DNA of 64,000 nt, taken from positions 26,223-90,222 of the forward strand of contig JASAND010022050.1 of NCBI GenBank assembly GCA_030248195.1, in the 5' to 3' direction. The position numbers and the translations under genes were made by a program. Below the pieces are notes generated by a model. It had not been told where the DNA came from. It saw nothing but the letters and a program-made list of their open reading frames with translations, and did no database searches. Source of the DNA: Trissonchulus latispiculum. Its lineage: Eukaryota > Nematoda > Enoplea > Enoplida > Ironidae. Positions 40,675-58,069 of the stretch are shown here, in pieces. Within the stretch, counting starts at the first letter, position 1. Each line of letters begins with the position of its first letter.

Positions 40675-43285
40675 GCTCAAAAGTCATCCACATAGCAAGT
40701 TTAATGCGTTCTTTCACGTGAACAGCTCAAAATTGCATTTGGACTTGGCAATTTTGTGCTGGCCGGTAAAAACCTCATTTTGGCGGATCGGCTGTTTGGC
40801 TCAGCTAAAGCGGCCAAAACGTACTCTGGGACAAAGAAATACGCGAAAAAACACTGAAACAACGTTTATTTTAATTTATTTCATCGAATTTCGAAAGATT
40901 TACAAATTTTTGCATTTTAACATAGAAACTGACAAATTTGATGAAACCTAGCCAGTTGATGCTGCAAATATTGATGTTTGATTTTCTCACTTATTATACG
41001 GAATATCGCAAAAATAAGTGCAGACATGAAGTCAGCGACGCCGATTTAACCTGTTGCATGCATAAAATCGCTAATATGAGTTACCCTGACCGAATACTGG
41101 GGTTGGTTTTTTCCCACCGGCTGGTTGTTTTCCAGTCATTGGTTTTTACCCCGGCTAATTAACCGTTAATTACTAATTAACGACAGGACCTAGAGAGGTG
41201 ATTTATATATCAAAATGACAGTCTAGACAGGGCTTGATAAGAAAATAATTTATAGCCGGATTGCTCCACTGGGTATATAGTTCTGCAGAGTCCAAAAAGT
41301 GACTACCTTGGTTTTTTCCCCGACCTCTATACGTACTTACGTAAATTTGAATGTGTCTTCGGACTTGTGCTATCTAATCTGATTTTAAGTGTATACGTAT
41401 TTTTATTTAATAATGTGTATGTTAATATTCATAATAACAACGATATATATAGTCAGACCCGGGAAAAACGCCCCAGATAAGGGTAAAACAACGGGGCCGC
41501 CCTGGAAGCCCGGTAGACCCGGCGAGTCCCACTAATGTGTGATAATATAGCGCCACCCTAGATGACCTCAAACTATAAGTATGAGACCCCTGGACCAAAT
41601 AGAAAGTTTTCAGTGTAATTTCAAAGTTGACCTCCCAAAACTACCGCCAAAAGCTAAGGGTCATATCGGAATTTCTAAACTTCTCTTGCTAGCGTGGAGA
41701 GACTCCGGGCTCCAATACTGTGCATGTGGGTTTGTATTGGCCCCAAGTATTAACACACAAGGCACCATATCCCCTACTGCATTGGGGCTCCACCAGCTGA
41801 CCATTTTTTTACCCCCAAAATTTCGCCACTTTTCGGGTAAAAAAATGGTCAGAATCCAGCAAAAAATTTTTTCTGAAGCAGTATGGGGGTTTTAATGCGT
41901 TTAGAACGCTTAAAAAGCATCGATTAAGCCTAAAAACTTTTTAAATTAGTCAAAACCGACCATTTTGAATATTTTTCAAAAATGGCTATTTTGCTTATGA
42001 AACCTGATTGCTGGATGCTGCACAATTTTTGAACTTTTCAAATCGATAAAAATTGTTACCAATTCATTATAACTTTGGTTTTTTTGGCCAAATATACTAA
42101 ATTTGATGCGCTCTTTCATCTGGAAGCATCAAATCTACTCTAGCGCCAATATTTTGGGGTGATTTTTTTACCACACACCAATTTTTTACCATTTTGTCGG
42201 GTAAAAAAATCACCGATTTTTTTATTAATCTGAGAATCTGTGGTGCTAGGAAAGATTTTAATACCTGAATCGATAGAGGGCAGTGCCGGGCACTTACATG
42301 CAAAACCGCTTCCAGATTGGCCAACATTTGCGAAAGTTAGAGGCTTAAGTCGAAAACCCTTTTTTTTATCCCGGGTCTGACTATACATCAGACATTATTA
42401 TTATTAATTCTAAACATTCTAAGCAATGCAATAGCGCCGCAGGCCAAAATTTTTGAATAAATCATATTCTGGTTAGAAAAGAATCGCAGTGTTTCAAAAA
42501 GTTTTAAAGAAGTTTGACAAAATTTTTGAAAATTTTAATAAAATTTTGCTTTCGATAATAGGCTAAAATCGGTTCCCGTTGCGGTACGTTTTCAAAAACC
42601 GGAACCGGAACCAAGAAGTATATACCGGAATCGGAATTCCGGTTGATCCCCAATATTATAGAGGTCGGAAAAAAAACCAAGGTAGTCACTTTTTGGACTC
42701 TGCAGAACTACTCTGTGGAGCAATTCGGCTATAAATTGTTTTCTTATCAAGCCCTGTCTAGACTGTCATTTTGGTATATACATAAATCGCGTCTCTAGGT
42801 GCTGTCGTTAATTAGTAATTAACGGTTAATTAGCCGGGGTAAAAAACCAATGGCGGGAAAAAACCAACCTATGGGGGAAAAAACCAACCCCAATATTCGG
42901 GCAGGGTAACTCATATTAGCGATTTTATGCATGCGACAGGTAAAATCGTCGTCGCTGACTTCATATCTGCAGTTATTTTTGCGATATTCCTTATAATAAG
43001 TGAGAAAATCAAAATTTGCAGCATCAACTGGCTAGGTTTCATCAAATTTGCCAGTTTCTATGTTAAAATGCAAAAATTTGTAAATCTTTTGATATTCGGT
43101 GAAATAAAATAAACGTTTTTTCAGTGTTTTTCGCGTATTTCTTTGCCCCAGAGTACATTTTTACCACTTTAGCTAAGCCAAACTGTCGATCCGCCGAAAT
43201 GAGGTTTTTACCGGCTAGCACAAAATTGAAAAGTCCAAATGCGTGAAAGAACGCATTAAACTTGGTATGTGAATGGCTTTTGCTA
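40675..43285. mobile_element. Long-TIR element (arms about 650 bp)
   Basis: The left arm, about 40675-41335, reappears inverted at about 42655-43285. Landmarks are AGCAAGTTTAATGCGTTC with GAACGCATTAAACTTGGT, AACCGTTAATTACTAATTAA on both sides, and TTTTTGGACTCTGCAGAACT inverted. Arms differ by scattered substitutions and indels. The central 1.3 kb has no recognisable transposase and is mostly occupied by a nested TA-type MITE. Superfamily is unassigned; no clear outer target duplication was found. Confidence 0.7.
41452..42381. mobile_element. TA-type (Tc1/mariner-like) MITE nested in the long-TIR element
   Basis: Termini GTCAGACCCGGG and CCCGGGTCTGAC are perfect inverses flanked by TA on each side (41450-41451, 42382-42383). 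About 930 bp. I see no transposase. The interior contains AAAAAATGG/CCATTTT-type inverted motifs. A TA target duplication is the mariner hallmark; the family is inferred from it. Confidence 0.7.
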
Positions 43286-44069: not shown

Positions 44070-44476
44070 GTATGTTTTGCTGGATTGGGTTGGTGTTCTT
44101 TTTTATGGGGTTTTGAGCACTGCCGGATCTAGGATTCGGTGACGGGGTGGCGGTAAAATGTTTGCAGCCGGGAGTCCGGGAGACGTAGCCTCCCAGAAAT
44201 TGAAGAAATTTTTGTTCTTGCAATAAAATCGGTCTTCGGATTTTTGATTCTTTTATTTTTGAAGAACTGAGAAAATTTTATAAAAAATATTACACATTTT
44301 TAGGCAAAAATAGGGGTGTGGGTAAAACCAGCCTCAACCAGGTTTTTTTTTTCAAAATAGGACCTGTGTAAATCTTGTGTAAATTTAAATTTCAGTGTGT
44401 ATTTTTGTATGACGCTGTGTAAAATCTAAGAATGTTGTTTTTCAAATATAATACGAAATAAAATATATACATTTAA

Positions 44477-45464: not shown

Positions 45465-48371
45465 TTAGTTATTTATCGAAAAATGACCATAAGCCATGGT
45501 TTCTATTCCATCGTCAGCTAGATATCGTTTATCATCAAAGGCAGAAAGTGATCGCTTGTTGACTTCCATGGAATACATTTGATGCAGATGACTTCGAATG
45601 TTTGTCATCTTGTGGTATTGAACACTTGGACGTAACAGTGCTTCCTTGTAGTGAGCATGGCGCATGTTTCGTTTCACTACTGCTTTTGAAATACCTTTTG
45701 CCCGCTTCTTACATTCTTCACCGTATGTAAAACTGTACATTTTTGATCGCAGACCAACGAATTCTGAAATGGGCATCCCCGAAGTTTCATCTTTCATCTT
45801 TCCCATTACCTTTTTATTATTTGTGCTGAATAAGAAGTGATCTGAAGGATAGTCACTTGTGTCATACCAGTCAAAGTGCTTTTGCAAATCCTTATAGATG
45901 TTTCTTGTCTTCACGAGATAACAGAGTGAGTCTGTGTCTGTAAAAAGTAGTTTGCAGTTCGAGCCATATACTTTCTTGAACTTGTTATAGTGAAAATCGT
46001 ACATCAGTAGTTTTGACAAGTCCAGAACCGTAAAACCAATATAGATCGGCTTGTTCAAGATGGTACGAGTTCTTCGCATCTTGACGGCAACCAGATCGTT
46101 TCCAAAATCGATGCTTTCTTCGTAGCGGGGACTTGCAACGAGTTTGAGAAATCTCCTGGTTGAAGTGACCAATTCAATATTGACATATGCTCTGACATTT
46201 TCCATGCTCTTCCCAAACACTGCATTGTTGAGAAGTTTGAACAGATCCTTTTCAAAATTGCTTGTAGCCTGTTTGCGCATGTTTGCGTTGAATTCTATGT
46301 AAGGCTTCATCCAAGTTGACTGCTTAAATGCTAACACTCGGTGAACTTTGACAACTCGCAGGCCAAGTTTTGTGTACAATTGAAGATTGCGAAGATAGAT
46401 AATATAATGTTGCTTGTTACCCAAAGTGGGGATCAATTTTTCGGTTTCGGTATGGTTTAGTTTCTGAATTGATAGCACATTCTTACAGTACGGAGACAGC
46501 ATTTGGTCTGTGATCGTTAACTTCTCGACAGCTAATGGATAGTCGTTGTGATCATTGTGAAGATTTGTTGGGTATTCGAGGTCTACCTCGAGGACATATC
46601 CGACATCCCCCTCTGGATCTTCTGCCAATGGACAGAATTGCTGTATACGTTCTTCATCAAGCCATTGAAAATCAGCTTCTGGCAGTTTCTGCGTCATCGT
46701 CCAACCATACAGATTATTCGCGTCAAGATAAATTATCCAAGACTGATCTTCAGTATGTTCTTCAATGTTGCGAGATGTGAGAAAATTTTCAGCTTGAGCG
46801 TACCGATGCATAATTGAACTGACACCACCTCTAATCCCAGCTTCAAAGAACGTGTACATATCAACATCTGTTAAGAGCTCCAGTTTCACTTTCGTTAATT
46901 TGAGGCAAGCAGACCACGCAAACGAAGGCAAGGTGTAGTAGTGTACTGGATCTATGGTGAAGTGGGCAAGCGAAAAATTGCGAAAATTTTCGAATATATC
47001 ACACAGTAGAAGAACGTCACATTTTAGATATAGATCATGGTAATCTCCTAGTGTTTTCATACAAAATGTTTGCCAAACGGTGTGGGCATGAGTAAACTCT
47101 TCAGCCCCTACGGTTTCCAGTGTAAGAGAGCTATAGAAATGGTCTAAGCTCGGTAGACTGGTTTCTTTAAATTTTTCCCACTCGTCCACATATTCGTATG
47201 GATAGATTCCTTTACGTAATAAAAGCTTCTGTTGATCCTCGGACGGAAAGAAGTGTCGAATGGCCAAGAAATTATTCTTATCATTTTTTGCCAAGGCTTG
47301 AACTAAAGTATCTAGCGAACTGGATAGGAACTGAAAAGAATCCAGGAATTTTATGGAATATGATATGCTTTGTTCGTTGTCGCTGGAAGAGTGCTGTAAC
47401 TGCAGAGAGAAGGTTATGTAGTCCTCCATTCCTTTTGGTATGCATTTAATGGTGGCATTGTGTTGCTTTGCTGCTGTCCCCAAACGCTGCATAATCAGAT
47501 GACCATCATAGCGTCTTAAGTTATGCAATACAACTGCTACATCCTTAGAAAGTTTATACTCAATGTTGCATTTTCTGTGTGCAGCTCCACGAAAGCATCC
47601 ACAAAGATGGCAATGATCTTTCACTTTTCCGATTGACTCGCAAAAGAGACAGTATGTATCAGACGGAGACTGTTGACACTGTTCACATTGTTGAAATGGT
47701 TTAGTACAGATGTGACAAAGAGAAGCCTGTTGAAAGCTTTTAACTTCTTCATTGCTAAGGTGATGCTTTCTTTCCCTTCTCTGCAGACGAGTTTGGTGAT
47801 TTGCTGATAGCTCCAAGATATTGTGAAGAAACCGCTCAACGCAGTCATCACCTCTGTAAGTCAGCAGATTCCCAAATTGTACTGGTGATTTCTCACAACA
47901 ATGATGTAAATCTAGGAGTCCAAAGCTGCACGGTACATGTTTGGCTTTCTTAATACTGTAAGACTTATCTGGATTAGGATCAGCAGTATGGATGGCGCGA
48001 ACAAAACATTCAAAGTCGGCGTAAATAACATATGGCATTCTGTGTGCGTTTTTCCACTGAGTGAACTCAAGCAGAGGCTTTCCTGATTCACTGCATTCAG
48101 GCATCTGAATACATTCTGTTGCTGTACATCGACGTTCATGTAATGCCAAAATTTCTTGAGAGGAGCAGGGCACCAAACATTTGAAGCAAAAGTATTTTCT
48201 GCATCGATGTTTGGTATGGCTATACAACAAACGATTTAAATCCTTTATAAGACAGTAGTGCCAATTATCGCCATTTTGTAGTATCAGCAAATTCACTTTA
48301 TATGTTGGAATGTCAGTTAATTTCGAAAGATATACTGGAAAAACATGGTCTTCGTAACCGTAGACGTTCAC
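45465..48371 (-). CDS. Protein-primed DNA polymerase B (pPolB), C-terminal 968 residues
   Basis: Family-B polymerase that copies the element using a terminal-protein primer. Visible parts are a cysteine cluster (CRKYFCFKCLVPC...HERRC) and the 3'-5' exonuclease motif YADFECFV (near 48010). A second cysteine-rich insertion follows (CHICTKPFQQCEQC...CHLCGCF). Polymerase motif A is DANNLYGW (about 46715), motif B is FKLLNNAVFGKSMENV and motif C is FTDTDSLCY (about 45940). The frame remains open upstream of 48371, and the N-terminal part continues in another frame at 48512-49027, so a frameshift near 48540-48560 splits the gene. Total length would be about 1180 residues, normal for Polintons. Stop TAA at 45465-45467. 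Confidence 0.93.
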   Translation of the reverse strand: MNVYGYEDHVFPVYLSKLTDIPTYKVNLLILQNGDNWHYCLIKDLNRLLYSHTKHRCRKYFCFKCLVPCSSQEILALHERRCTATECIQMPECSESGKPLLEFTQWKNAHRMPYVIYADFECFVRAIHTADPNPDKSYSIKKAKHVPCSFGLLDLHHCCEKSPVQFGNLLTYRGDDCVERFLHNILELSANHQTRLQRRERKHHLSNEEVKSFQQASLCHICTKPFQQCEQCQQSPSDTYCLFCESIGKVKDHCHLCGCFRGAAHRKCNIEYKLSKDVAVVLHNLRRYDGHLIMQRLGTAAKQHNATIKCIPKGMEDYITFSLQLQHSSSDNEQSISYSIKFLDSFQFLSSSLDTLVQALAKNDKNNFLAIRHFFPSEDQQKLLLRKGIYPYEYVDEWEKFKETSLPSLDHFYSSLTLETVGAEEFTHAHTVWQTFCMKTLGDYHDLYLKCDVLLLCDIFENFRNFSLAHFTIDPVHYYTLPSFAWSACLKLTKVKLELLTDVDMYTFFEAGIRGGVSSIMHRYAQAENFLTSRNIEEHTEDQSWIIYLDANNLYGWTMTQKLPEADFQWLDEERIQQFCPLAEDPEGDVGYVLEVDLEYPTNLHNDHNDYPLAVEKLTITDQMLSPYCKNVLSIQKLNHTETEKLIPTLGNKQHYIIYLRNLQLYTKLGLRVVKVHRVLAFKQSTWMKPYIEFNANMRKQATSNFEKDLFKLLNNAVFGKSMENVRAYVNIELVTSTRRFLKLVASPRYEESIDFGNDLVAVKMRRTRTILNKPIYIGFTVLDLSKLLMYDFHYNKFKKVYGSNCKLLFTDTDSLCYLVKTRNIYKDLQKHFDWYDTSDYPSDHFLFSTNNKKVMGKMKDETSGMPISEFVGLRSKMYSFTYGEECKKRAKGISKAVVKRNMRHAHYKEALLRPSVQYHKMTNIRSHLHQMYSMEVNKRSLSAFDDKRYLADDGIETMAYGHFSINN

Positions 48372-48511
48372 GGCAATAGTATTCTGATTTTCAAACTTCG
48401 GAATTTGTGAAAGCGGCAGGGGAAACGAGAGTCCTTCGAGCTTGAGTGAATCTTTGAGTGACTGGTAATGGGATATGCGTTGAGGATTGTCCTGCTGTGG
48501 ATAAAGGAATG

Positions 48512-49027
48512 CTAGAATGCTCCAAACAAAGCAGTGATTGTCAGTATAATTTTGAGGGTTGATATTGCCTTTTTCGCTGATAACTTTGACGGCAGAGGAA
48601 TGAAGGAAGCTGCTTGAAGTGGAACATATTGAGCTACGTGAACATCCAACAGATCAATAGTATCTATGACCCAGCCAGAACCTCTCTTTTGAAACTCATC
48701 AACCTTCTTTTGCAGTTCAGAGGTAGCCGCCTGCATAATGGTTTTCGGATCGTCAGCTAACAAAACGGTCTTTTGATGGCTGTTGAAGTATGCTTCTAAC
48801 TTCACTGTGTAGTCTGTAATTTTGTAGAAAGTAACTTGCAGTCGCAATTGTACTTTTATAGCACTCAACTCAGTTTGTAGTCTCCTGATTAGGAATTTTA
48901 GCAACTGCTTTGTGTCACCAATATAAGACGACAAATCACAATACGTTGCAGAAGAGCTTAGCCGATATCGTCGAAGGTATCCTCGGAGTGATTGCGCAAT
49001 CGTTTGAAGGTCAAAGGTTTCTGACAT
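48512..49027 (-). CDS. pPolB N-terminal part (frameshifted from the main frame)
   Basis: Starts at ATG 49027-49025 (MSETFDLQTIAQSL). It contains the segment typical of Polinton polymerases ahead of the catalytic body: a GSGW motif, then YVPLQAASFIPLPSKLSAKKAI. After that the reading frame changes and the product ends at 48512, while the polymerase continues in a neighbouring frame. A short A run (CAAAATT) near 48555 is a candidate indel site. Divergent from the pseudokinase gene; the two start codons were only about 50 bp apart before the MITE inserted. Confidence 0.8.
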   Translation of the reverse strand: MSETFDLQTIAQSLRGYLRRYRLSSSATYCDLSSYIGDTKQLLKFLIRRLQTELSAIKVQLRLQVTFYKITDYTVKLEAYFNSHQKTVLLADDPKTIMQAATSELQKKVDEFQKRGSGWVIDTIDLLDVHVAQYVPLQAASFIPLPSKLSAKKAISTLKIILTITALFGAF

Positions 49028-49039
49028 TTCAATCTAAAT

Positions 49040-49801
49040 CACGGTTTTTTTTTTGCGTAAAATACTGCGTATTTACGCAGTCGAGCTTAAAAATACGCAG
49101 TCAAAAACAAAAATACGCACCAAAATACGCAGCCGAAAAATTCGGTAGCAAGAATTTCCAGAGTGCTCTAAATTAATTTCTTGGGACAATTCAACGTAGT
49201 TTGGGCTCTGGCTTCTTCTGGGGGGCTCCGCCCCCCAGACCCCCCCCCACTTATATACCTCTTCGCTTCTACATTGATCCTCCCGTCTGCAGTTGCTTCT
49301 AAACACACGTATATTGTTGTATACGTTGTATACACATGCGTTGTTTTTGTTTCTATTTTGATTTGACATAGTAAACTAAAATTTTATCTGTTCTAAGACT
49401 TTAGGTATTTGTTCTATTCGTAAACTCTATTTGTCTAACCAACAACTTTACTATTAAATTGCTCCAGGCAAAGAATTCAAAGTTTTAAGAGCAAATTTAA
49501 TCAAAAATTTAAAATTTTCTTCAACTTCTGGGGGGCTGCGCCCCCCAGACCCCCTGCGTGTCTGTTTCAAATCAAATATTCATACTTTTACACCATAGTT
49601 CAATCGGCACGCAACGTAAAATGAAGCTAAGACCTTTAAGGTTGTTTAAAAACTCTTAAAAACTAATTAATTCGACGCAAAATGCGTTTATAGCGTTGAG
49701 AAGCGATTTTTGTAATTTTACGCAGTCGAAAATAAAAATACGCACTCGAAAACAAAAATACGCAAAATTTACGCAGGTCCGATTTTCAAAAAAAAACCCT
49801 G
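49040..49801. mobile_element. hAT-type MITE with TACGCAG arrays, inside the Polinton
   Basis: Starts CACGGTTTTTTTTTTGCG and ends AAAAAAAAACCCTG, imperfect inverse termini. A perfect 8-bp duplication ATCTAAAT flanks it (49032-49039 and 49802-49809). Repeated AAAATACGCA(GTC/CTCGAAAAC) units occur at both ends. Two hairpins of form CTGGGGGGC-loop-GCCCCCCAG lie at about 49218 and 49528. It separates the polymerase start from the pseudokinase start. Confidence 0.85.
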
Positions 49802-49838
49802 ATCTAAATCAAATCAAAACAAGCACATTGAGTACCAG

Positions 49839-50771
49839 ATGGGGTGTTGCTGTTGCAGTCAGAGTAGTAGAATTAGGATGGACAAGAGTGGTTGCTACAC
49901 ACTTGATGGTGCAGACACACTTGTGAAGTTTTACCCAGCAGTGAAGATTCAATATGGTTGGATTCCTGTTAAAGAATACTGCGGAAATAATTTAAAGATT
50001 GGAAAAGTCCTCAATAGTATAGACTGGGAATGGTTCTGGGATGTTAGCAACAGATTACACCATGATGAAACTGATGTTCATCAGAAATTGAAAGAAGCAA
50101 AAGACATTTTACTTCCACCTACCGCACGTCTTGTCCAGTTTCCAGGACCTCCTATCAACGGTCAATTTCTTCTTATCTATGATCCCAGCTTTGGAACAGT
50201 TGTTGATCAACTGAAATTAAAGGGTATTTTTGGAGAGATATATGCTAGACAAATTTTTAAACAAATGGCATCAGCCGTGGCGTATGCTCATCAAAGCTCT
50301 ATGTTTTTGATGGACATAAGACTGTTGAACTGGGAATTTGTTGATGCAGGACGAAACAAGATTCGCTTAAGATGTTTTGACGAACTGCAAGTTATGGAAG
50401 ATGGTGACGAATTTACTGAAGTTCGTTTTCGAACAACTCCATATGCATCGCCAGAATTTGTTCAAGTGGAAAAGTTTCCCGAAATTAATGCTAAGCAGTC
50501 TGATATGTGGAGTCTAGGAGTAGCACTATTCTTAATGACAACTGGAAGGTACCCGTTCACTACAACTGCTCAAGCTTCGATTCAAGAGAATATTGTTAAC
50601 GAAAGAGTGATATTTCCAATTCACTTACCACTATCGGTTGAGCTGAAATTGCTGATAGCTGGATGTTTGAGAAAGGATCCACAAAAGAGATGGACAGCAT
50701 GCAACTTGATTCAACACCCTTGGTTTCAAGCTTCAACTAACTATGGACTGGGACTTATGAATGAGCCCTAA
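49839..50771 (+). CDS. Tribbles-like pseudokinase, Polinton cargo
   Basis: 310 residues, single exon. The start MGCCCCSQSS is a strong N-myristoylation plus palmitoylation signal, implying membrane attachment. Residues about 100-300 have the C-lobe of a protein kinase in Tribbles style. These include ARQIFKQMASAVAYAHQSS, then a catalytic loop MDIRLLNWEF where the Lys and Asn of HRDLKxxN are lost, as in Tribbles. The DFG equivalent is FDELQV. YASPEF replaces APE, then MWSLGVALFLMTTGRYPF and a final HPWF. No glycine-rich loop is visible. Tribbles proteins are scaffolds that steer E3 ligases and MAPK signalling; no COP1-binding tail is evident here. The gene lies between the polymerase and NADAR, where Polintons carry variable cargo. 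Capture from a host is inferred. A degenerate active kinase is the alternative. Confidence 0.8.
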   Translation: MGCCCCSQSSRIRMDKSGCYTLDGADTLVKFYPAVKIQYGWIPVKEYCGNNLKIGKVLNSIDWEWFWDVSNRLHHDETDVHQKLKEAKDILLPPTARLVQFPGPPINGQFLLIYDPSFGTVVDQLKLKGIFGEIYARQIFKQMASAVAYAHQSSMFLMDIRLLNWEFVDAGRNKIRLRCFDELQVMEDGDEFTEVRFRTTPYASPEFVQVEKFPEINAKQSDMWSLGVALFLMTTGRYPFTTTAQASIQENIVNERVIFPIHLPLSVELKLLIAGCLRKDPQKRWTACNLIQHPWFQASTNYGLGLMNEP

Positions 50772-50837
50772 CAGGTAGGGTGTTTTTTTATGAAACACGT
50801 GATGTTTGAAAAACTGGTCAATCAAAACATAGCAGGG

Positions 50838-50845
50838 TATATAAG
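50838..50845 (+). promoter_or_regulatory. TATA box for the NADAR gene
   Basis: TATATAAG inside GGGTATATAAGGGGC, 80 bp before the NADAR start codon and about 70 bp after the pseudokinase stop. It is the best core promoter match in the element. Confidence 0.6.
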
Positions 50846-50917
50846 GGGCTGTTGGAATTTTAAAAGTCTTTATTTGTATCTTGTCTTGTGTGTCAGTGTC
50901 TTTACAATTTTGTTAGC

Positions 50918-51541
50918 ATGAATTTTGCATACGAAACTCTGGCCAAGAGCACCACTGGTGAAGACTTAATAATGTTTTACAGCGGCTGGAGTGTGCTCAG
51001 TACATTTCGGATTAGCCCATTTAAACTCGATGGGAAAAATTACCGATCCGTCGAGCAATACATGGCAGCACATCGAGCTAAGATGGCAAATAGAGAAGAT
51101 TTGCATAGTGAAGTAATGAAGGAGTTTGCACCCAGTAAATATCGCGACATTCTTGACGGAGTGCAAGATCCTGTTGACTGGGAGCCAAAGTCAGTGCAGC
51201 TCATGGAAAAGGCACTTCTTGCAAAGTTTCGCCAGAATAAAAATGCTGCCCATGTCTTGAAATCAACTGGAAGTAAGTTTCAGATTAGAGTTTCATATAC
51301 TGAACTAAATAGCCTGCAGTTGATATTTCCTTAGGATAACTGTAATTATCAACGTTAATAACTCCTTGTTGTTTCTGTTGTAGATGCTAAAATTGTCTTT
51401 GCCACTCCCTACGATTACTTCTGGGGAAACGGATTAATTGTTAATGAACCTGCCTGTTTGGATCCTACGAAATACCCTGGACGAAACGTGTTGGGTGAAC
51501 TGCTATGTAAGATTCGGGAAGAAATTAAATATAATGAATGA
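50918..51541 (+). CDS. NADAR-domain protein, intron-containing Polinton cargo
   Basis: Exons 50918-51272 and 51384-51541 are joined by a 111-nt intron (GTAAGT...TTGTAG) and give 170 residues. ATG 50918 (MNFAYETLA) fits the TATA box. NADAR (DUF1768/YbiA-like) features in order: MFYSGWSVLSTFRISPF, GKNYRSVEQYMAAHRA, ALLAKFRQNKNAAHVLKSTG, then after the intron IVFATPYDYFWGNG and RNVLGELLCKIREEI. Family members hydrolyse ADP-ribose or riboside linkages, including reversal of guanine ADP-ribosylation, and occur in large DNA viruses. In this setting a counter-defence role against ADP-ribosylation or NAD-based immunity is plausible but inferred. AATAAA follows the stop directly. Confidence 0.85.
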
Positions 51542-51605
51542 ATAAAGCTACCAGTTTGATTATCACTGTTACTGTTATTTTAATAAATCTGTGGCTTGAT
51601 GTTTA

Positions 51606-52673
51606 ATGGATGCCAAACTAGCAAATATCTACTATTCTCCCAATCAACCTGGCTCCTATTCATCCTCCAAATTATACTATGAAGCACGAAGAAAAGGGCT
51701 ACCTGTCACGAAACCGAAAATAAAAGACTGGTTGGCAAAGCAGAATACGTTTCAACTTCATAAAATAGCAAAACGGAAGTTTCCACGAAGGCGTGTTATT
51801 GTTGAAGGGATCGATGCATTATGGGACCTAGACCTTATGTTTGCCCTAAAACTTCGAAGGTACAACTTTGGAGTGCGTTACGTTTTGGTAGCCATTGATG
51901 TTTTCAGCAAAATGGCGTTTGTTGCAGCCCTGAAGACGAAAACTGCAAGCGCAGTGTTACAAGGCTTTAAGAAGATTCTGAAGAAAGCATTTCCTAGGTT
52001 TCCAAAGACAATCAGAACAGACAAAGGAAAAGAGTTCTGTGGTGCATTTAACAGGTATCTGATTAGCAACCAAATCAATCACCAGTGGGCTAATCCACCT
52101 CTTAAAGCCAACTATGCCGAAAGATTCATTAGAACACTTCGAGATAAAATTTCCAGATTTCTCACAGAAAAGAATTCGCGTCAGTATGTGACGAAATTGC
52201 AAGATTTGGTAGATTCATACAATAAAACCGTACACTCAGCAACTGGAATGGCTCCACTTTCGGTGACATCTGATGCGAATGATCGCCTGAGACAAAAGCT
52301 GTATGGAAAACAACCTGAGAGAAGTTCTTCTTTTAAGTTCAATCTCGGAGATCAAGTTAGAATAAGCCGAAGAAAGGCTGTTTTCGAGAAAGGTGCTACT
52401 CAAAATTGGTCAGAAGAATTCTTTGAAGTAAGCGGGAGAATGAACACTAGTCCGCCAATGTATTACTTAACAGACATGCTCGGTGATCAACTGAAACCGA
52501 TGTTTTACGAGGAGGAACTGCAGATGATAGAACCAAATGCTTGGAATAATAGGAAAGTTGCAAAAGCGGTCCCAGTAAAAAGTTCACCAAATAGTTTCAA
52601 GGTCTTTTGGCGCGGTTGGCCTGAATCAATGGCTGAAACCTTGACTAGCGAGGAGTATAAAAGGCGACGTTAG
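51606..52673 (+). CDS. Polinton integrase (retroviral-type DDE)
   Basis: 355 residues. N-terminal YYSPNQPGSYSSSKLYYEA...WLAKQNTFQLHK is the usual Polinton integrase opening. The catalytic core has Asp in LWDLDLMF, Asp in RTDKGKEFCGAF and Glu in ANYAERFIRTLRDKI, followed by YNKTVHSATGMAP. The C-terminal part (FNLGDQVRISRRK...YYLTDMLGDQLKPMFYEEEL) is an SH3-like DNA-binding tail, ending with a chromodomain-like FKVFWRGWPES. It inserts the element with a short target duplication. The frame is intact and all three acidic residues are present. Confidence 0.95.
   Translation: MDAKLANIYYSPNQPGSYSSSKLYYEARRKGLPVTKPKIKDWLAKQNTFQLHKIAKRKFPRRRVIVEGIDALWDLDLMFALKLRRYNFGVRYVLVAIDVFSKMAFVAALKTKTASAVLQGFKKILKKAFPRFPKTIRTDKGKEFCGAFNRYLISNQINHQWANPPLKANYAERFIRTLRDKISRFLTEKNSRQYVTKLQDLVDSYNKTVHSATGMAPLSVTSDANDRLRQKLYGKQPERSSSFKFNLGDQVRISRRKAVFEKGATQNWSEEFFEVSGRMNTSPPMYYLTDMLGDQLKPMFYEEELQMIEPNAWNNRKVAKAVPVKSSPNSFKVFWRGWPESMAETLTSEEYKRRR
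52656..52663 (+). promoter_or_regulatory. TATA box at the integrase 3' end
   Basis: TATAAAAG within GGAGTATAAAAGGCG, overlapping the last integrase codons and 50 bp before the small gene at 52713. Its sequence quality and spacing suggest a late-type promoter. Confidence 0.5.
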
Positions 52674-52712
52674 AAAGAAGCTGGTCATTTCGCAGTTCTG
52701 ATTGGCGCTAAC

Positions 52713-53018
52713 ATGTCGTCCGGGAAAGACAGTTGGCAGGAAGTTGAATCTGATTTAATGAAAGTAGCCCTTTTTGAAATAATTGATAAGCTTAAAGCGT
52801 TAATGGCGGAGGGGTGTGCTGGTTGCAACAGCGATGATCCAGTATTTGCTAGGTATGGTTCGGCCCATCAAGACGGATGCTGTCGCTCACCGTGTGAAGC
52901 TGTATCCGGCTTACTGCCAAAAGCTTTGGAAGAACTGAAAATGCAGACTAATAAATACTCTTTTGCAGACAAAGATAAATTAGCTGACTTAGTTTTGAAA
53001 ACTTGGCGTGGTTTGTAG
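52713..53018 (+). CDS. Small cysteine-containing Polinton protein, unknown function
   Basis: 101 residues starting MSSGKDSWQEVESDL. Two helical flanks enclose a central cysteine group, CAGC...CCRSPC, that could bind zinc or form disulfides. It follows the integrase by 39 nt and precedes the penton gene by 32 nt, so it is probably a structural or accessory virion gene. I do not recognise a family. Confidence 0.65.
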   Translation: MSSGKDSWQEVESDLMKVALFEIIDKLKALMAEGCAGCNSDDPVFARYGSAHQDGCCRSPCEAVSGLLPKALEELKMQTNKYSFADKDKLADLVLKTWRGL

Positions 53019-53050
53019 TGACCATTATTATTATTTGCTGTTTTATTAAA

Positions 53051-53799
53051 ATGGATGTTGCCTCAAATGCATTCTATGTTACATTGCCGTCTAATGCTTC
53101 TATGTCCATATACCCTGACAATACGTTGGCCAGTTACCATGTGAAACTAAACACTCCTTTGACATTAACCGGTAACTGGGAAGTCGCACTTGCTGAAATT
53201 TCATATCCTAACAATGTTTTTAACATTGGAGATCAAGAAAAGGATAGAACTGTAATTGTGGAACGTTGGGCGACTCAGACCAGTGTACTAATAAACCCTG
53301 GATGCTATACAAGTTTTGAGCACGTGTGTAGTTTGCTCAATACCAAATGTGATGAAATTGATTTAAAATTTAGCTTCAACAACAGAAAGGTTTGCATAGA
53401 GTCATCATCTGAAATGCCTATTAATATAACGTTTCCTGGAAGGCTAGGCCTGTTACTTGGATTTAAGCCTCTCCATTTGTATCAATTCACTGGTTTTATC
53501 TACAGTGAGCTTCCGCCGGATTTAAGCGGTGGTATTTGTCATTATTACGTTTACTGCAACATCTGTGAACCTCAAATAGTCGGAGACCAATACTCCCGAT
53601 TACTGCGGATTCTTACAACATTCAGGATACTTCTGTCATTCAAAGAGACTACAGCAACCTACATTATCTTAAAGTCCCAAAGGATAAAAGTGTATCAGTA
53701 GTTCGAATAGACATCTGCACGGAAGACGGTAATCCTGTCCCATTCTCTGATTTCGGCCGTGTAATTGTCGTTTTACATTTGCGTAGGAGAGGTATTTAG
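53051..53799 (+). CDS. Minor capsid (penton) protein, frameshifted
   Basis: ATG 53051 (MDVASNAFYVTLPSN). The first about 190 codons show the single jelly-roll penton signature: SIYPDNTLASYHVKL, then NWEVALAEISYPN, and QIVGDQYSRLLRI near 53580. After about 53605-53625 the frame that carries the characteristic C-terminus (IDICTEDGNPVPF and an LHLRR end, stop TAG 53797-53799) is the -1 frame. In the starting frame the product ends at 53701. A 1-nt loss or a sequencing error explains this; no slippery heptamer is apparent. The protein would form the capsid vertices together with the major capsid protein. Confidence 0.82.
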
Positions 53800-53800
53800 C

Positions 53801-54337
53801 ATGTCAACTGATCAGAGCGCTTGCCTTTGCAAATTTCTACAACGACATCAGAATGGCCAGGGTTTTGTATATCCGATAGGCCCTATATACAATGGCGCAA
53901 TCCACCAGCAAGGACATGGTATTGGGTCCGTTTTTGCGAGTCTAGCTAAGTGGCTCCTACCTGTTGCCAAATTCCTCACTCCCCACATTCTTGATGGTGT
54001 GACTCAATTCACAAAAAATACGGTCATGCGTAAGCAATCCAAAAAACGTGCAGCTAAAGAAGCAGCAAAGTCGGTTGCGACCAGTGCTATAAAAGATCTT
54101 TCTTCCAAACTTACGTTGCAAACGGGTGCAGGCACGAAACGTAGAAAAGCGCGAAAGTCATCACAATTGAAGAAACAATCGTCAAGGAAGTCCACTAAAA
54201 CAACTAAGAAGAGACCACGAACGAAACGCCAGAACCGATCGTCTCGTCGAAAGTCTAGAAAGCAGCAAATCTCAAGAGGAAGAAAACGAAACCAGCGTTC
54301 TCCATCGAAAGTTGATTTCAGAGACATTTTTGCTTGA
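53801..54337 (+). CDS. Basic virion core/membrane-active protein
   Basis: 178 residues, starting ATG 53801 one base after the penton stop. Residues about 40-70 are a hydrophobic, possibly membrane-inserting stretch (GIGSVFASLAKWLLPVAKFL). The C-terminal 75 residues are extremely Lys/Arg/Ser-rich (RKARKSSQLKKQSSRKS), like a DNA-condensing core protein. Polintons and adenoviruses both carry such proteins beside the capsid genes, so a pX/pVI-pVII-like role is inferred from position and composition. Confidence 0.7.
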   Translation: MSTDQSACLCKFLQRHQNGQGFVYPIGPIYNGAIHQQGHGIGSVFASLAKWLLPVAKFLTPHILDGVTQFTKNTVMRKQSKKRAAKEAAKSVATSAIKDLSSKLTLQTGAGTKRRKARKSSQLKKQSSRKSTKTTKKRPRTKRQNRSSRRKSRKQQISRGRKRNQRSPSKVDFRDIFA

Positions 54338-54340
54338 TAA

Positions 54341-55687
54341 ATGGCAGCGAAAAGAATGAAGCGAATGGAAGATTCCAAGGCAACATCTGCTCTCTTCGTA
54401 AAAGCAGAAACGGATATTTTTAGTCAAATGCCTGTTCAGTCGTCAGTTGGACAGACTCAATTAATTGACTATCGCCCGATAAATGCCATAGCAACCAACA
54501 ACCCTATAACCTTCTTCATTCCGGGAAACGAAGAAGAAATGTTGGATCCAACATTTTTGCTTAAATGTACATTTAAGGTAAAGCCAGTAACTGCTGTGAA
54601 ATTGATGGCGTCTGCGAAACTGGCGGTAATTAACGCTTTTGGTCATACAATGTGGAAAGATATTACAGTGAAGATCGGTGACAAAATTATTAGTTCAGCT
54701 ACGGAAAATTATGCATACAGAGCTTATTTGGAAAGACTATTAAATTTTGGCAGAGAAGCAAAAGAGTCACAGCTTACAATGGAAATGTACTACAAGGATA
54801 CAGCAGGAAAGTTCAACAGCCTCGAGCAGAACGAAAACAATGGGTTTCGAATGAGGCAATTCATTTGTTCGACAGGAAGGCCGGTGATCATGTTAACTCG
54901 TTTGTCTACAGATATTGGAAATCAGCCGCGACTACTGCCAAACAACATAGATATCACTATTACCTTGTATCAGTGTTCAGATAACTTTAGACTACTGTAT
55001 TCCAAAACTGATGCAGATTCTTTAGACTATACTGTGGAAATAATGGATGCACAGCTCTATTGCAAACGTATTAAATTGACACCGCCAATGGCATTAGCCA
55101 TTGCTCAAACCCTACGGCTGAAACCTGCCCTGTATCCAATTTCTAGGGTTCTGGTTAAGACTTTTCAAATCAGTGCAGGTACAACACTTGTCAACCGCGA
55201 AAGCATTTCCTTAGGTCAACTACCTAGAATGGCGATTGTCGGAGTAGTGGAAAGCTTAGCATACACGGGTCATCCAGAGAAAAATCCATTTAATTTCCAG
55301 TCCAAGAACTGCACCTACGCTTGTCTATACAAAGACAGCGATCCAATTCCATCTATTGCCTACACTCCTAACTGGGCAATGTCAGATGTGGTTCGCGAAT
55401 TTATGAGCTTGTTCCATGCCAGCAATATGTTAGGCAACAATATTGGCAACAACATTAGCTTATTCGACTACATGAACGGCGGATATGTATTGTATGCCTT
55501 TGACCTAACTCCAGACGATGCTGGTGCCGCACCGCACACATCCACTGGTCGACAAGGCAGCCTGACGCTAAAAATGCAGTTTGCCCCTAACGAAATTGAC
55601 GTCCCCTGCACAATTGTTGTCTATTTAGTATACGATAATACATTGTGGATTGATCATCATCAAAACGTACTTACTGACTTCAGTTAA
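54341..55687 (+). CDS. Major capsid protein (double jelly-roll)
   Basis: 448 residues, ATG 54341 three nt after the preceding stop. Sequence landmarks of Polinton major capsids: LIDYRPINAIATNNPITFFIPG, NAYRAYLERLL-like ENYAYRAYLERLLNFG, SLEQNENNGFRMRQF, PVIMLTRLSTDI, LLPNNIDITITLYQ and a C-terminal LKMQFAPNEIDVPCTIVVYLV. It would trimerise into capsid capsomers. The frame is intact. Assignment comes from these motifs and its place between core protein and protease. Confidence 0.9.
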   Translation: MAAKRMKRMEDSKATSALFVKAETDIFSQMPVQSSVGQTQLIDYRPINAIATNNPITFFIPGNEEEMLDPTFLLKCTFKVKPVTAVKLMASAKLAVINAFGHTMWKDITVKIGDKIISSATENYAYRAYLERLLNFGREAKESQLTMEMYYKDTAGKFNSLEQNENNGFRMRQFICSTGRPVIMLTRLSTDIGNQPRLLPNNIDITITLYQCSDNFRLLYSKTDADSLDYTVEIMDAQLYCKRIKLTPPMALAIAQTLRLKPALYPISRVLVKTFQISAGTTLVNRESISLGQLPRMAIVGVVESLAYTGHPEKNPFNFQSKNCTYACLYKDSDPIPSIAYTPNWAMSDVVREFMSLFHASNMLGNNIGNNISLFDYMNGGYVLYAFDLTPDDAGAAPHTSTGRQGSLTLKMQFAPNEIDVPCTIVVYLVYDNTLWIDHHQNVLTDFS

Positions 55688-55692
55688 ACAAC

Positions 55693-56298
55693 ATGAATAG
55701 CCAGCAAATTATGGAAACTTTGCAAAACAATACGGTGACGGCTCCATACTTTGCAGGTGTGTTTGCAAAGGACACCTTGCCCTTCCATATTACTACAATC
55801 GTTCCAAACAAGAGATATTCCATTTTCATTACAAATACAGACACTATCAGCGGTCCAGGAGAACACTGGGTCCTATTTTGGTTCTGTGGTAAGAGTAAAG
55901 GGAGAAAGCAACGTTTCTGTTACTTTGTGGACTCTTATGGAATGCCACCAGAATTTTATTGCAAAGAGTTTGTAAAGTTTATCAATAGAAACTCAGAAGA
56001 CTTTTGTTTCAATACTAAATGTGTTCAGTCAATTAACAGTAATACATGTGGTGATTGGTGTTTGTATGCTGCCTATTATTTGTGTTTGTCAACGTATAAT
56101 GAGACTGCTGAAAATTCTCTTGACGTTTTCTTTCGCTTTTCTGAAAAACCATCCGAAAGAGCTAACAATGATAATTTCGTCCGAAATGAAGTTAAACGTT
56201 TGTTCTCTTTCTACGATGTTTCACAAAACAATTTTGAGCGCTGCTTATGTTGTCAGCTCCTATGCAGTGTACTTTATAAATATTACTCTTTCTGCTAA
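55693..56298 (+). CDS. Adenain-like maturation cysteine protease
   Basis: 201 residues. Catalytic elements in adenain/Ulp1 order: His in GPGEHWVLFWF, Asp in YFVDSYGMPPEF, then NSNTCGDWCLYAAYY carrying the nucleophilic Cys (CGDWC) preceded by the usual N/Q-rich strand. It processes capsid and core precursors in the virion. It starts 5 nt after the major capsid stop. The C-terminus is Cys-rich (RCLCCQLLCS). The frame is intact. Confidence 0.92.
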   Translation: MNSQQIMETLQNNTVTAPYFAGVFAKDTLPFHITTIVPNKRYSIFITNTDTISGPGEHWVLFWFCGKSKGRKQRFCYFVDSYGMPPEFYCKEFVKFINRNSEDFCFNTKCVQSINSNTCGDWCLYAAYYLCLSTYNETAENSLDVFFRFSEKPSERANNDNFVRNEVKRLFSFYDVSQNNFERCLCCQLLCSVLYKYYSFC

Positions 56299-56322
56299 TA
56301 ATGTCTTAAAGCATCAGGCTGT

Positions 56323-56341
56323 GGCGCGGCGAAGCCGCGCC
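56323..56341. repeat. GC-rich hairpin between protease and ATPase genes
   Basis: A perfect 8-bp stem GGCGCGGC with loop GAA and GCCGCGCC, in otherwise AT-rich DNA. Could act in RNA 3'-end formation or DNA structure; no direct evidence. Confidence 0.6.
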
Positions 56342-56405
56342 CCGCCTACGCTCGCCCCTCAATATTTATACTTTGCTATTTCTATGATTTTAGTGAAAAT
56401 AAAAT

Positions 56406-57074
56406 ATGGAAGAGATTGAATTTGATAGTCGTCTTCAGACACCATTTTCAATGATTGTCACAGGATGTTCGGGTAGCGGAAAGACACACTGGATTGAACG
56501 CTTTTGTAAGCAACAATCCAGTTTAATGAACCGCCCTGCATCTAAGATATACTGGTGTTATGGCGTTGACCAGCCAGACTTCCACAGAAACCTTTGCTAC
56601 ACTGTTCCTAACCTAGTCCTTCATAAAGGTTTCAATTTAGACTTTTACAATCAAACACCTGAACTGCTTGATAGCAATAGTTGTGTGCTGTTAATACTTG
56701 ATGACCTTCATTCAGACTTAGCCAATCTTCCTATTCTTGGTGACTTATTTACAAAATTCAGCCACCATACCAATACATCGGTCATCTTTACTACTCAAAA
56801 CTTTTACCACCAAGGCTCTCAGTCACGTGACGTTAGCAGAAACGCTCACTACATTGTATTGCTGAGTCAACCTAGAGATCAAACTGTAGTTCGATCAATC
56901 GCCCGTCAAATGTTTCCAAAGAAGAGCACATACATGCTCAGTGCATATAACGATGCTACCAGCTCCCCCTACGGTTATTTACTTATTGACGCGAAACCAT
57001 TCACTCCAGCTAAGCTTCGCTTAAGAACTGGCATTTTCAGTGATCAGGAGGACTTTGTAAACGTGCCTTCATAA
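56406..57074 (+). CDS. Genome-packaging ATPase (A32/FtsK-HerA type)
   Basis: 222 residues. Walker A GCSGSGKTHWIERF at residues about 17-30, Walker B LLILDDLHSD at about 97-106, and the sensor region SVIFTTQNFYHQGSQSRDVSRNA typical of Polinton and virophage packaging ATPases. It drives DNA into the capsid. ATG 56406 lies in AAAATATGG. The next gene begins directly after its stop. Confidence 0.93.
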   Translation: MEEIEFDSRLQTPFSMIVTGCSGSGKTHWIERFCKQQSSLMNRPASKIYWCYGVDQPDFHRNLCYTVPNLVLHKGFNLDFYNQTPELLDSNSCVLLILDDLHSDLANLPILGDLFTKFSHHTNTSVIFTTQNFYHQGSQSRDVSRNAHYIVLLSQPRDQTVVRSIARQMFPKKSTYMLSAYNDATSSPYGYLLIDAKPFTPAKLRLRTGIFSDQEDFVNVPS

Positions 57075-57413
57075 ATGGGACCTAGTAGTTTGCTTCAAAA
57101 ACAGTTACATTGGTTACAAGTTTTATCGGAAGCAAATCCTCGATTTAGAAAAAGAATTATAAAAGGATGTAAAACTGCTGTTATTCGAGCAATATGCGAA
57201 TGCTGCTTAAATATTTTGCGCGGGAACCCTGCCTTAAGCATAAAGCAGAAGCGAAGGTTACGGCCCTACCGAAATCTGTGTCGACGTCTGCTGAATCGAT
57301 CATTGTCCAGCAGCAAAAAGCGTGGTCTGTTGCTTCAGCGAGGAGGCTCAATTCTTCCCTTGATACTTACCCCAATTCTTGGAGCGGTGTTGGGATGGCT
57401 TTCCAGAAAATGA
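57075..57413 (+). CDS. Small basic virion protein with hydrophobic C-terminus
   Basis: 112 residues. ATG directly follows the ATPase TAA. The body is Arg/Lys-rich (RRLRPYRNLCRRLL) and the end is a Gly-containing hydrophobic helix (ILPLILTPILGAVLGWLSRK). This layout is common in small Polinton proteins placed after the ATPase and resembles adenoviral core or membrane-lytic peptides. Its stop overlaps the next start (ATGA at 57410-57413). Confidence 0.75.
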   Translation: MGPSSLLQKQLHWLQVLSEANPRFRKRIIKGCKTAVIRAICECCLNILRGNPALSIKQKRRLRPYRNLCRRLLNRSLSSSKKRGLLLQRGGSILPLILTPILGAVLGWLSRK

Positions 57414-58069
57414 AGCTTGTTCCTTGCACATCACTGTCATTTCCTCAACAGCATTCACACGATGAACTGCAATCGCTAAGACGCAATGTTCAATCGAGCC
57501 TGGACCGGGAAATGGAGGAAATTTTAAAAAGCAATATTCCCGAATACACCAAGCTGAAATTGTACAACAACGTCTTGATCAAATTCCTAAGTGTTGCTGA
57601 AAACCAAACTCAAAGTGAGCAGCCCGGAAACACAGCAACAGTGGATTCAAACCTGCTTACTGCATTTCCTACATCTGTGCATCAAAAAATGGCGAACTTC
57701 ATGAAGCTACTGACCAGTACCAACATTAAGTGGGATTCAGCTGGAAATGTGTATATCAATGATAGACCTATAGGTGGATCCAGAATTAGTGATCTCGTAT
57801 ATCATCTAGTACAAACGTCTGCAACCAGGAAACCACCTATTGGTTTTGATGACTTTTTGAAGGCAGTTGCGGATACTGAAATACCAAGTACTTTCATGGG
57901 AACTGCTAAAATGAGACGACAACTGGAGGAATTACGTCAAGAAGCCAGCACCGTTACTGACTTTGAACAACTACCACATACACAATCTGGTTTTGGAAAG
58001 AATAAGAAGAAGAAGATGGTTCGTAACATTAAAAGACCTACCAAAACATTCTATTGGTATAAGTATTAA
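57410..58069 (+). CDS. Conserved Polinton late protein, unknown function
   Basis: 219 residues from ATG 57410 in the ATGA overlap. A longer frame reaches back to 57194 but only re-reads the previous gene. Sequence includes SLDREMEEILKSNIPEYTKLKLYNN, WDSAGNVYINDRPIGGSRISDLVYHLV, a PIGFDDFLKAV segment and a very basic tail (KNKKKKMVRNIKRPTKTFYW). I recall similar proteins next to the ATPase in other Polintons, with helical N-terminus and a GS.I.DL motif, but no activity is known to me. A virion protein is likely from position. Confidence 0.7.
   Translation: MKLVPCTSLSFPQQHSHDELQSLRRNVQSSLDREMEEILKSNIPEYTKLKLYNNVLIKFLSVAENQTQSEQPGNTATVDSNLLTAFPTSVHQKMANFMKLLTSTNIKWDSAGNVYINDRPIGGSRISDLVYHLVQTSATRKPPIGFDDFLKAVADTEIPSTFMGTAKMRRQLEELRQEASTVTDFEQLPHTQSGFGKNKKKKMVRNIKRPTKTFYWYKY

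Follow-up and report, generated by a model that had tools for sequence, protein, structure and literature searches.

Genes for a Tribbles-like pseudokinase and a NADAR protein lie side by side in a Polinton-type element of the nematode Trissonchulus latispiculum and recur as a pair at the same place in related elements of the same genome, where both are constrained about as strongly as the core genes of the element, and NADAR even more so. The element spans positions 45,465-58,069 of a stretch of 64,000 nucleotides (nt) that is referred to as the window in the following (contig JASAND010022050.1, here C14953, positions 26,223-90,222; assembly GCA_030248195.1; genome of 733.8 Mb in 21,732 contigs). 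We propose that the two genes constitute a selected two-protein cargo module of this Polinton family, with the pseudokinase gene diverging from the polymerase gene and with a NADAR protein that would act as a binder rather than an eraser, a reading to which we assign a probability of roughly 0.6.

The original prediction had placed both genes between the divergent polymerase gene and the integrase gene, and this arrangement, with the polymerase on the minus and the integrase on the plus strand, is confirmed by matches to Pfam families and solved structures, including an rve match for the integrase (1.3e-12). Both frames had also been described as intact, which holds true for the pseudokinase, a single open reading frame (ORF), whereas NADAR is intact only in the form of two predicted exons, because a stretch GTAAGT...TTGTAG separates the two pieces matching PF08719. 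The features of the pair are:

49,839-50,771, plus strand: Tribbles-like pseudokinase, 310 amino acids (Pfam Pkinase 2.5e-25, solved-structure relatives, family alignment, N-termini)
49,878, plus strand: alternative start of the pseudokinase (Met14, the second ATG)
50,838-50,844, plus strand: TATATAA box, 80 nt upstream of the NADAR ATG (consensus match only)
50,918-51,272, plus strand: NADAR exon 1 (predicted), kept in the 20 family copies with both exons (PF08719 1.5e-14 over 50,918-51,331, profile positions 11-118)
51,273-51,383, plus strand: predicted phase-1 spliceosomal intron of 111 nt, GTAAGT...TTGTAG, at the same position in 20/20 two-exon copies
51,384-51,541, plus strand: NADAR exon 2 (predicted), in which Phe (IVFATPYD) takes the place of the last-strand acid (PF08719 1.9e-8 over 51,386-51,538, profile positions 118-163; at 35.2 bits only just above the cut-off of 35.1)
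51,541-51,546, plus strand: AATAAA directly past the NADAR stop codon (consensus match only)

Wherever a family copy contains both exons (20/20), they are separated by an interruption of phase 1 with GT...AG borders and a length of 102-190 nt, and by this conservation it is a predicted intron and no frame break.

Using the pseudokinase for a search of the genome, we inspected 22 places belonging to the family, the window included (L089-L110). Polymerase (minus strand), Tribbles, both NADAR exons and integrase (plus strand) follow each other in this order at 18 of them (L089-L099, L101-L106, L108), which locates the pair at the same site in related elements. At L107, situated at a contig end, and at L109 Tribbles, NADAR and integrase are present without the polymerase in the stretch examined, and L100 is an interrupted, partial copy. 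Identity to the family copies drops to 32% for Tribbles and amounts to 60-100% for NADAR exon 1 (19 full matches) and 79-100% for exon 2. In the window, 811 nt lie between the start codons of polymerase and pseudokinase, compared with 29-90 nt in the 19 other copies measured.

A similar picture emerged when the integrase and the capsid protein served as starting points. Candidates were scored for 128 of 308 pseudokinase, 150 of 739 NADAR, 114 of 2665 integrase and 94 of 1251 capsid matches, so that the counts of co-occurrence are lower bounds. At least 22 integrase places reach 50% identity or more, and 18 of these have both genes within 10 kb. Of the remaining four, C1048 retains exon 2 of NADAR immediately ahead of the integrase, contig C5520 begins inside the integrase at base 2, C18721 holds the same cut integrase and C15604 an integrase with stops. 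Capsid places at 60% identity or more are located on 22 contigs, 16 of which carry both genes, the remaining six consisting of truncated or broken integrase/capsid pieces, among the matches listed. Co-occurrence was counted over all 114 integrase rows and, after places listed in two pieces had been reduced to one entry, over 127 of the 129 rows for the pseudokinase and 148 of the 150 for NADAR; the NADARs of retroelements lie outside the NADAR list. A NADAR place occurs within 6 kb of at least 32 of the 127 Tribbles-like places and the reverse applies to 31 of 148, while an even scatter lets one expect about 0.3.

Nonsynonymous (dN) and synonymous (dS) substitutions were compared between copies by Nei-Gojobori counts. 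Between the window and L090, dN and dS are 0.038 and 0.409 for the pseudokinase (ratio 0.09, 310 codons), 0.000 and 0.586 for NADAR exon 1 (ratio 0.00, 118 codons), 0.009 and 0.508 for NADAR exon 2 (ratio 0.02, 49 codons), 0.038 and 0.362 for the integrase (ratio 0.10, 221 codons) and 0.042 and 0.314 for the N-terminal part of the polymerase (ratio 0.13, 170 codons). A comparison of L106 with L108 yielded 0.185/1.393 for the pseudokinase, 0.009/1.076 for NADAR exon 2 and 0.131/1.301 for the integrase. Together, the fixed slot in related copies and purifying selection bear out the earlier suggestion of a cargo module. The accompanying picture of intact cargo amid broken core genes stood only in so far as the polymerase gene is split over two frames. 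As integrase, capsid protein and packaging ATPase are likewise single open ORFs, the intactness of the pair says little, and we dropped it as proof of selection in favor of the comparison of substitutions between copies, which is the stronger evidence.

Both protein families are known from host cells and related genes reside in a retroelement of the same genome, such that the pair could in principle be functionless passenger DNA, that is, host genes or an assembly error between polymerase and integrase. Against this stand the gene order shared by 18 of the 22 places, which lie on separate contigs, and dN/dS ratios of 0.00-0.14 between the window and both L090 and L091, which leave the passenger explanation with practically no probability. 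Single-gene host contamination or misassembly was rejected because the same gene order exists on separate contigs. Of the two outcomes that the original prediction had named as refuting it, absence of the pair from other copies and a match to single-copy host genes, neither came about.

Residues of the pseudokinase and the NADAR protein

Among solved structures, TRIB1 and TRIB2 are closest to the pseudokinase (96.6-91.9 bits), followed by MELK as the next kind (61 bits). The window protein resembles them in lacking the DFG aspartate: it reads CFD, with Cys at the Asp position, and this residue is variable across the family. The catalytic-loop Asp position is occupied by D, N, K, S, P or other residues among the copies. 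Because both aspartate positions vary, selection on the pseudokinase appears to keep something other than catalysis. A further likeness, the HPWF-like end of the kinase domain, is kept in part of the family copies. On the other hand, identity to TRIB1/TRIB2 is about 30% over the C-lobe with the N-lobe unmatched, and the pseudokinase is encoded by an intronless viral ORF with an optional MG start. Tribbles pseudokinases possess a C-terminal COP1-binding motif. The tail of the window family, which ends about 11 residues past HPWF, is too short for such a motif, and a COP1-type pattern ([DE]x0-2VP[DE]) is present in 0/26 pseudokinase tails tested, which speaks against the proposed redirection of ubiquitin ligases. 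Nor could the membrane tethering originally suggested be generalized: out of 20 copies with a readable start, nine begin with MGCC (L089, L090, L091, L100) or MG[SL]VFS (L096-L099, L101), and the remaining 11 begin at the residue that corresponds to Met14, so that tethering is a putative, lineage-specific trait. Relatives of the pseudokinase were found neither in viral contigs nor, at E<=1e-3, in the protein database (822 candidates; a search of limited reach).

For NADAR, the residues can be compared with characterized enzymes. In an oomycete NADAR, roles have been assigned to E43, K50 and E125 (PMC11543638, PMC11125620), the last of which is represented by Glu, Asp or His in the subfamilies known (PMC11125620). 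In the window family, the first Glu, located in a VEQY motif, is kept in 19/20 copies, and PYDxxWG likewise retains its Asp and Trp. The phosphate-contact Lys is replaced by Arg in 19/20 copies and by Gln in one, and the last-strand acid is Phe in 19/19 readable of the 22 copies. Efficient hydrolysis by the NADAR of Escherichia coli C7 depends on D171, the structural counterpart of this acid (PMC11543638, Mol Cell 2023). The position that corresponds to D171 by sequence, two residues before the last-strand position, is occupied by Ile in our family. Judged from these replacements, the protein is probably a binder rather than an eraser, and the earlier view of a NADAR erasing ADP-ribosylation is not upheld. 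The family agrees with YbiA-type NADAR hydrolases (PF08719) in the match of both exons, the first Glu and the D..WG motif, but differs from the YbiA, BC4488 and phage types by Phe for the last-strand acid and Arg for the phosphate Lys.

Other NADARs of the same genome (L137-L150) have Glu-Lys-Glu in 14/14 cases; these were hand-picked from the NADAR search, about half of them for nearness to an integrase. A last-strand Glu occurs in 69/69 distinct NADARs from viral contigs and phages (84 loci; the search patterns included the Lys, the conservation of which is therefore not independent, and did not include the last-strand Glu) and in both solved NADARs found (8bau, 2b3w). In a tree of exon 1 (32 rows, 117 columns), which leaves the last-strand position outside the alignment, the NADARs with Phe (F-type) of the window family and of a second lineage described below, the latter on a long branch, group apart from those with Glu (Glu-type; support 93/95). 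An argument from the 'GR' residues for the ADP-ribose pyrophosphate was dropped, since Glu-type NADARs of the same genome lack them as well. Viral contigs yielded no relatives of NADAR exon 1, and neither did the protein database at E<=1e-3 (3 candidates; search of limited reach). Within the genome NADAR is abundant, with at least 150 places scored out of the 739 first-look candidates, many of them intronless ORFs of 150-200 amino acids.

Similar gene pairs elsewhere in the genome

Pairs of the same two protein kinds were encountered in two further settings. On contig C9688 (L113, L125, L126), two tandem Tribbles-like ORFs lie near an intronless NADAR gene on the opposite strand, in an element with a polymerase related to that of the window and, next to it, a dUTPase (2.3e-41); neither an integrase nor a capsid match is present in the 20 kb read. 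The best solved relative of one of the tandem kinases is TRIB2, at 187 bits (STK40 92), a closer match than that of the window's pseudokinase. NADARs of this second lineage (C9688, L135, L136) show Gln-Lys-Phe in 3/3 cases.

The other setting is a retroelement. In 3/3 elements scanned, the RNase H-integrase ORF is of the Ty3/Gypsy type, and behind it come a Tribbles-like ORF and one of about 700-740 amino acids with a C-terminal NADAR domain and, in two of the three, a weak 3'-5' exonuclease match. The 3' gene set is completed by an ORF that matches no Pfam family and by another kinase-like ORF. Kinase, NADAR ORF and second kinase are present in 7/8 contigs compared. The exception in gene content is C10351, where a Gypsy-type polymerase and a Tribbles-like ORF are enclosed by direct repeats and no NADAR match was obtained; such repeats are seen on 1/8 contigs, and several contigs end inside the element. 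The loci are:

L111, L112, L114-L124, L129-L134 (contigs C5542, C8957, C10389, C13216, C3462, C10974, C8847, C6810): Gypsy-type elements
L127/L128 (C10351, 9124-9984 and 19490-20350): direct repeats of 861 bp, 98.96% identical

TRIB1 is the best solved relative of the retroelement kinase, at 144 bits (STK40 75), again a closer match than that of the window's pseudokinase. In a kinase tree, the relative order of the second lineage, the retroelements and TRIB1 is unsettled.

Proposed function and alternatives

As the divergent starts are so close, the pseudokinase would be made together with the polymerase. The NADAR gene comes with a predicted intron and with TATA-like and AATAAA sites of its own. 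The pseudokinase may engage the host partners of Tribbles-type kinases, either as a scaffold or as a decoy; that these partners belong to the mitogen-activated protein kinase (MAPK) pathway is a guess prompted by the HPWF-like domain end in part of the copies. NADAR would bind, but not cleave, an ADP-ribose derivative or a nucleic acid carrying ADP-ribose and might in this way shield or soak up a host ADP-ribosylation signal. Binding is the simplest common property, because both active sites are altered and both sequences constrained, and the two proteins may act in one pathway.

Several observations weigh against this proposal. At L110 the polymerase is accompanied by a Tribbles fragment, and neither NADAR nor integrase lies in the stretch examined. 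Recent copy pairs exhibit higher dN/dS ratios of up to 0.87 (L099/L101), although high ratios of very similar copies are what is expected from drift after insertion. An AlphaFold2 model of the pseudokinase alone reached a confidence (pLDDT) of 31 and was not used. In C7 NADAR, E173, the conserved Glu by sequence, is dispensable and it is D171, two residues earlier, that is required; moreover, the K95R variant is active in vitro and E88A has only a mild effect (PMC11543638), so that the residues alone cannot decide on a loss of activity. NADARs from the retroelements are of the Glu-type in 3/3 cases read, and loss of the acid is thus no rule of the Tribbles/NADAR pairing. Finally, among the matches listed, NADAR lies within 10 kb of 22/92 integrase places of other Polinton lineages and Tribbles of 0/92, from which it follows that NADAR works without a Tribbles partner in those lineages.

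It is conceivable that F-type NADAR has remained an enzyme that uses a different substrate or another catalytic residue, and that the Tribbles-like protein is its partner or acts separately. The activity of the C7 variants K95R and E88A fits such a view (PMC11543638), and so do the complete lack of amino acid changes in exon 1 relative to L090 at a dS of 0.586 and the preservation of the VEQY Glu and of Asp and Trp of PYDxxWG. In none of the copies read is there an acid at the last-strand position or two residues before it, however, and the second lineage has Gln for the first Glu in 3/3 cases, a replacement that abolishes activity in C7 NADAR (E88Q; PMC11543638). We regard a retained enzymatic function as rather unlikely, yet deserving serious consideration.

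Alternatively, the pair could function within the life cycle of the element itself (in the virion, genome processing or copy control) instead of acting on host defense. Such a role would agree with the fixed slot between polymerase and integrase, the divergent start with the polymerase and a conservation as strong as that of core genes, and processing of an RNA intermediate has been suggested for retrotransposon NADARs (PMC12477816). Four distant Polinton fragments (L085-L088, 28-35% capsid identity) contain neither gene at E<=0.01, though, and Tribbles is equally missing near the other-lineage integrases considered above. These two results argue against a general Polinton function of the pair and render this option improbable.

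Taking the cargo-module reading further, the linked genes might encode a single effector made of two pseudoenzymes, a Tribbles scaffold and a former eraser turned ADP-ribose reader, that disarms a host ADP-ribosylation response wired to Tribbles/MAPK signaling, with the same two protein kinds joined again in the Ty3/Gypsy-type retroelement of the same genome. We consider this extension unlikely and offer it as speculation; if true, one host pathway would be attacked by two unrelated kinds of mobile element.

NADARs of viruses and of mobile elements are already in print (PMC9503650, PMC12477816). Those encoded by phages, nucleocytoplasmic large DNA viruses and animal RNA viruses have been proposed to counter host ADP-ribosylation (PMC9503650). 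The element studied here is likewise virus-type and carries a NADAR, but one that contains a predicted intron, belongs to the F-type and is linked with a Tribbles relative; polintons, virophages, adintoviruses and mavericks are not mentioned in the text of that survey. Mobile elements that gained NADAR domains include Gypsy elements of Ectocarpus and Tx1 long interspersed nuclear elements of oyster; in contrast to the Polinton-type element these are retroelements, and no Tribbles-like gene is described for them in the covered part of the text (PMC12477816). The presumed novelty of the pair in Polintons stands for the open literature searched, where polinton in combination with Tribbles or NADAR gave no match, and does not extend to subscription papers, which were outside that search. 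Titles listed for NADAR together with pseudokinase were off subject, and the text of PMC11071296 contains neither NADAR nor Tribbles.

The linked and selected pair connects Tribbles pseudokinases with the biology of ADP-ribose, which no paper in the open literature searched was found to do. A NADAR subtype kept by selection with Phe at the catalytic-acid position makes the question of reader or enzyme testable. The roles of NADAR in animals have been described as unclear (PMC11125620), and a recurring Tribbles partner provides a concrete lead.

Other genes and surroundings of the element

The polymerase on the minus strand is followed, all on the plus strand, by pseudokinase, NADAR, integrase, further ORFs, capsid protein, probable protease and ATPase:

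45,465-48,371, minus strand: main part of the polymerase (second frame, open to 48,653), 49-60% identical to a capsid-adjacent ORF in L088
48,512-49,027, minus strand: N-terminal part of the polymerase (first frame), matching the N-terminal polymerase part of family copies
49,032-49,809, no strand assigned: probable later insertion; its inverted ends of 22 nt are imperfect, and it contains internal repeats as well as two GGGGGGCTNCGCCCCCC hairpins (G/C)
51,606-52,673, plus strand: rve integrase, 355 amino acids (Pfam match above cut-off)
54,341-55,687, plus strand: major capsid protein of the Polinton/F54H12.2-like family, 448 amino acids (852 database proteins at E<=1e-3)
55,693-56,298, plus strand: probable maturation protease (position and matches in L085/L088; no Pfam match above cut-off)
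56,406-57,074, plus strand: packaging ATPase of the Pox_A32 type (Pfam 4.5e-9, above cut-off)

The polymerase ORF of 968 amino acids has no Pfam match, and by PolB-type motifs it is a candidate polymerase of the protein-primed family B. The closest relatives of the capsid protein are 50% identical, and several of them are named F54H12.2-like and come from animals. A double-jelly-roll major capsid protein, a mark of the Polinton/adintovirus type, is thus predicted for the element, which shares capsid, integrase and ATPase genes of the same kind with Polintons and adintoviruses. It differs in the Tribbles/NADAR slot, absent from the 4/4 distant fragments, and in that terminal inverted repeats were not found: no long inverted pair frames the element in 40,000-64,000, and its ends are unlocated, so that a loss is indistinguishable from a missed end. 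Outside this genome, viral contigs yielded no integrase or capsid relatives. The capsid, integrase and ATPase genes of L085-L088 reside on contigs filed as bacterial assemblies (e.g., a Bathymodiolus symbiont), which are therefore mis-binned contigs of eukaryotic or viral origin.

The stretch at 49,032-49,809 is probably a later insertion because the distance between polymerase and pseudokinase is far shorter in the other copies measured. The GGGGGGCTNCGCCCCCC 30-mer has no exact match in viral contigs, and part of the stretch has a 73% identical inverted relative at 44,167-44,253. Adjoining the element on the minus strand is an ORF of 389 amino acids without Pfam match (58,858-60,027). A large fold-back structure with inverted arms of 41-139 nt and 83-96% identity occupies 40,678-43,282.
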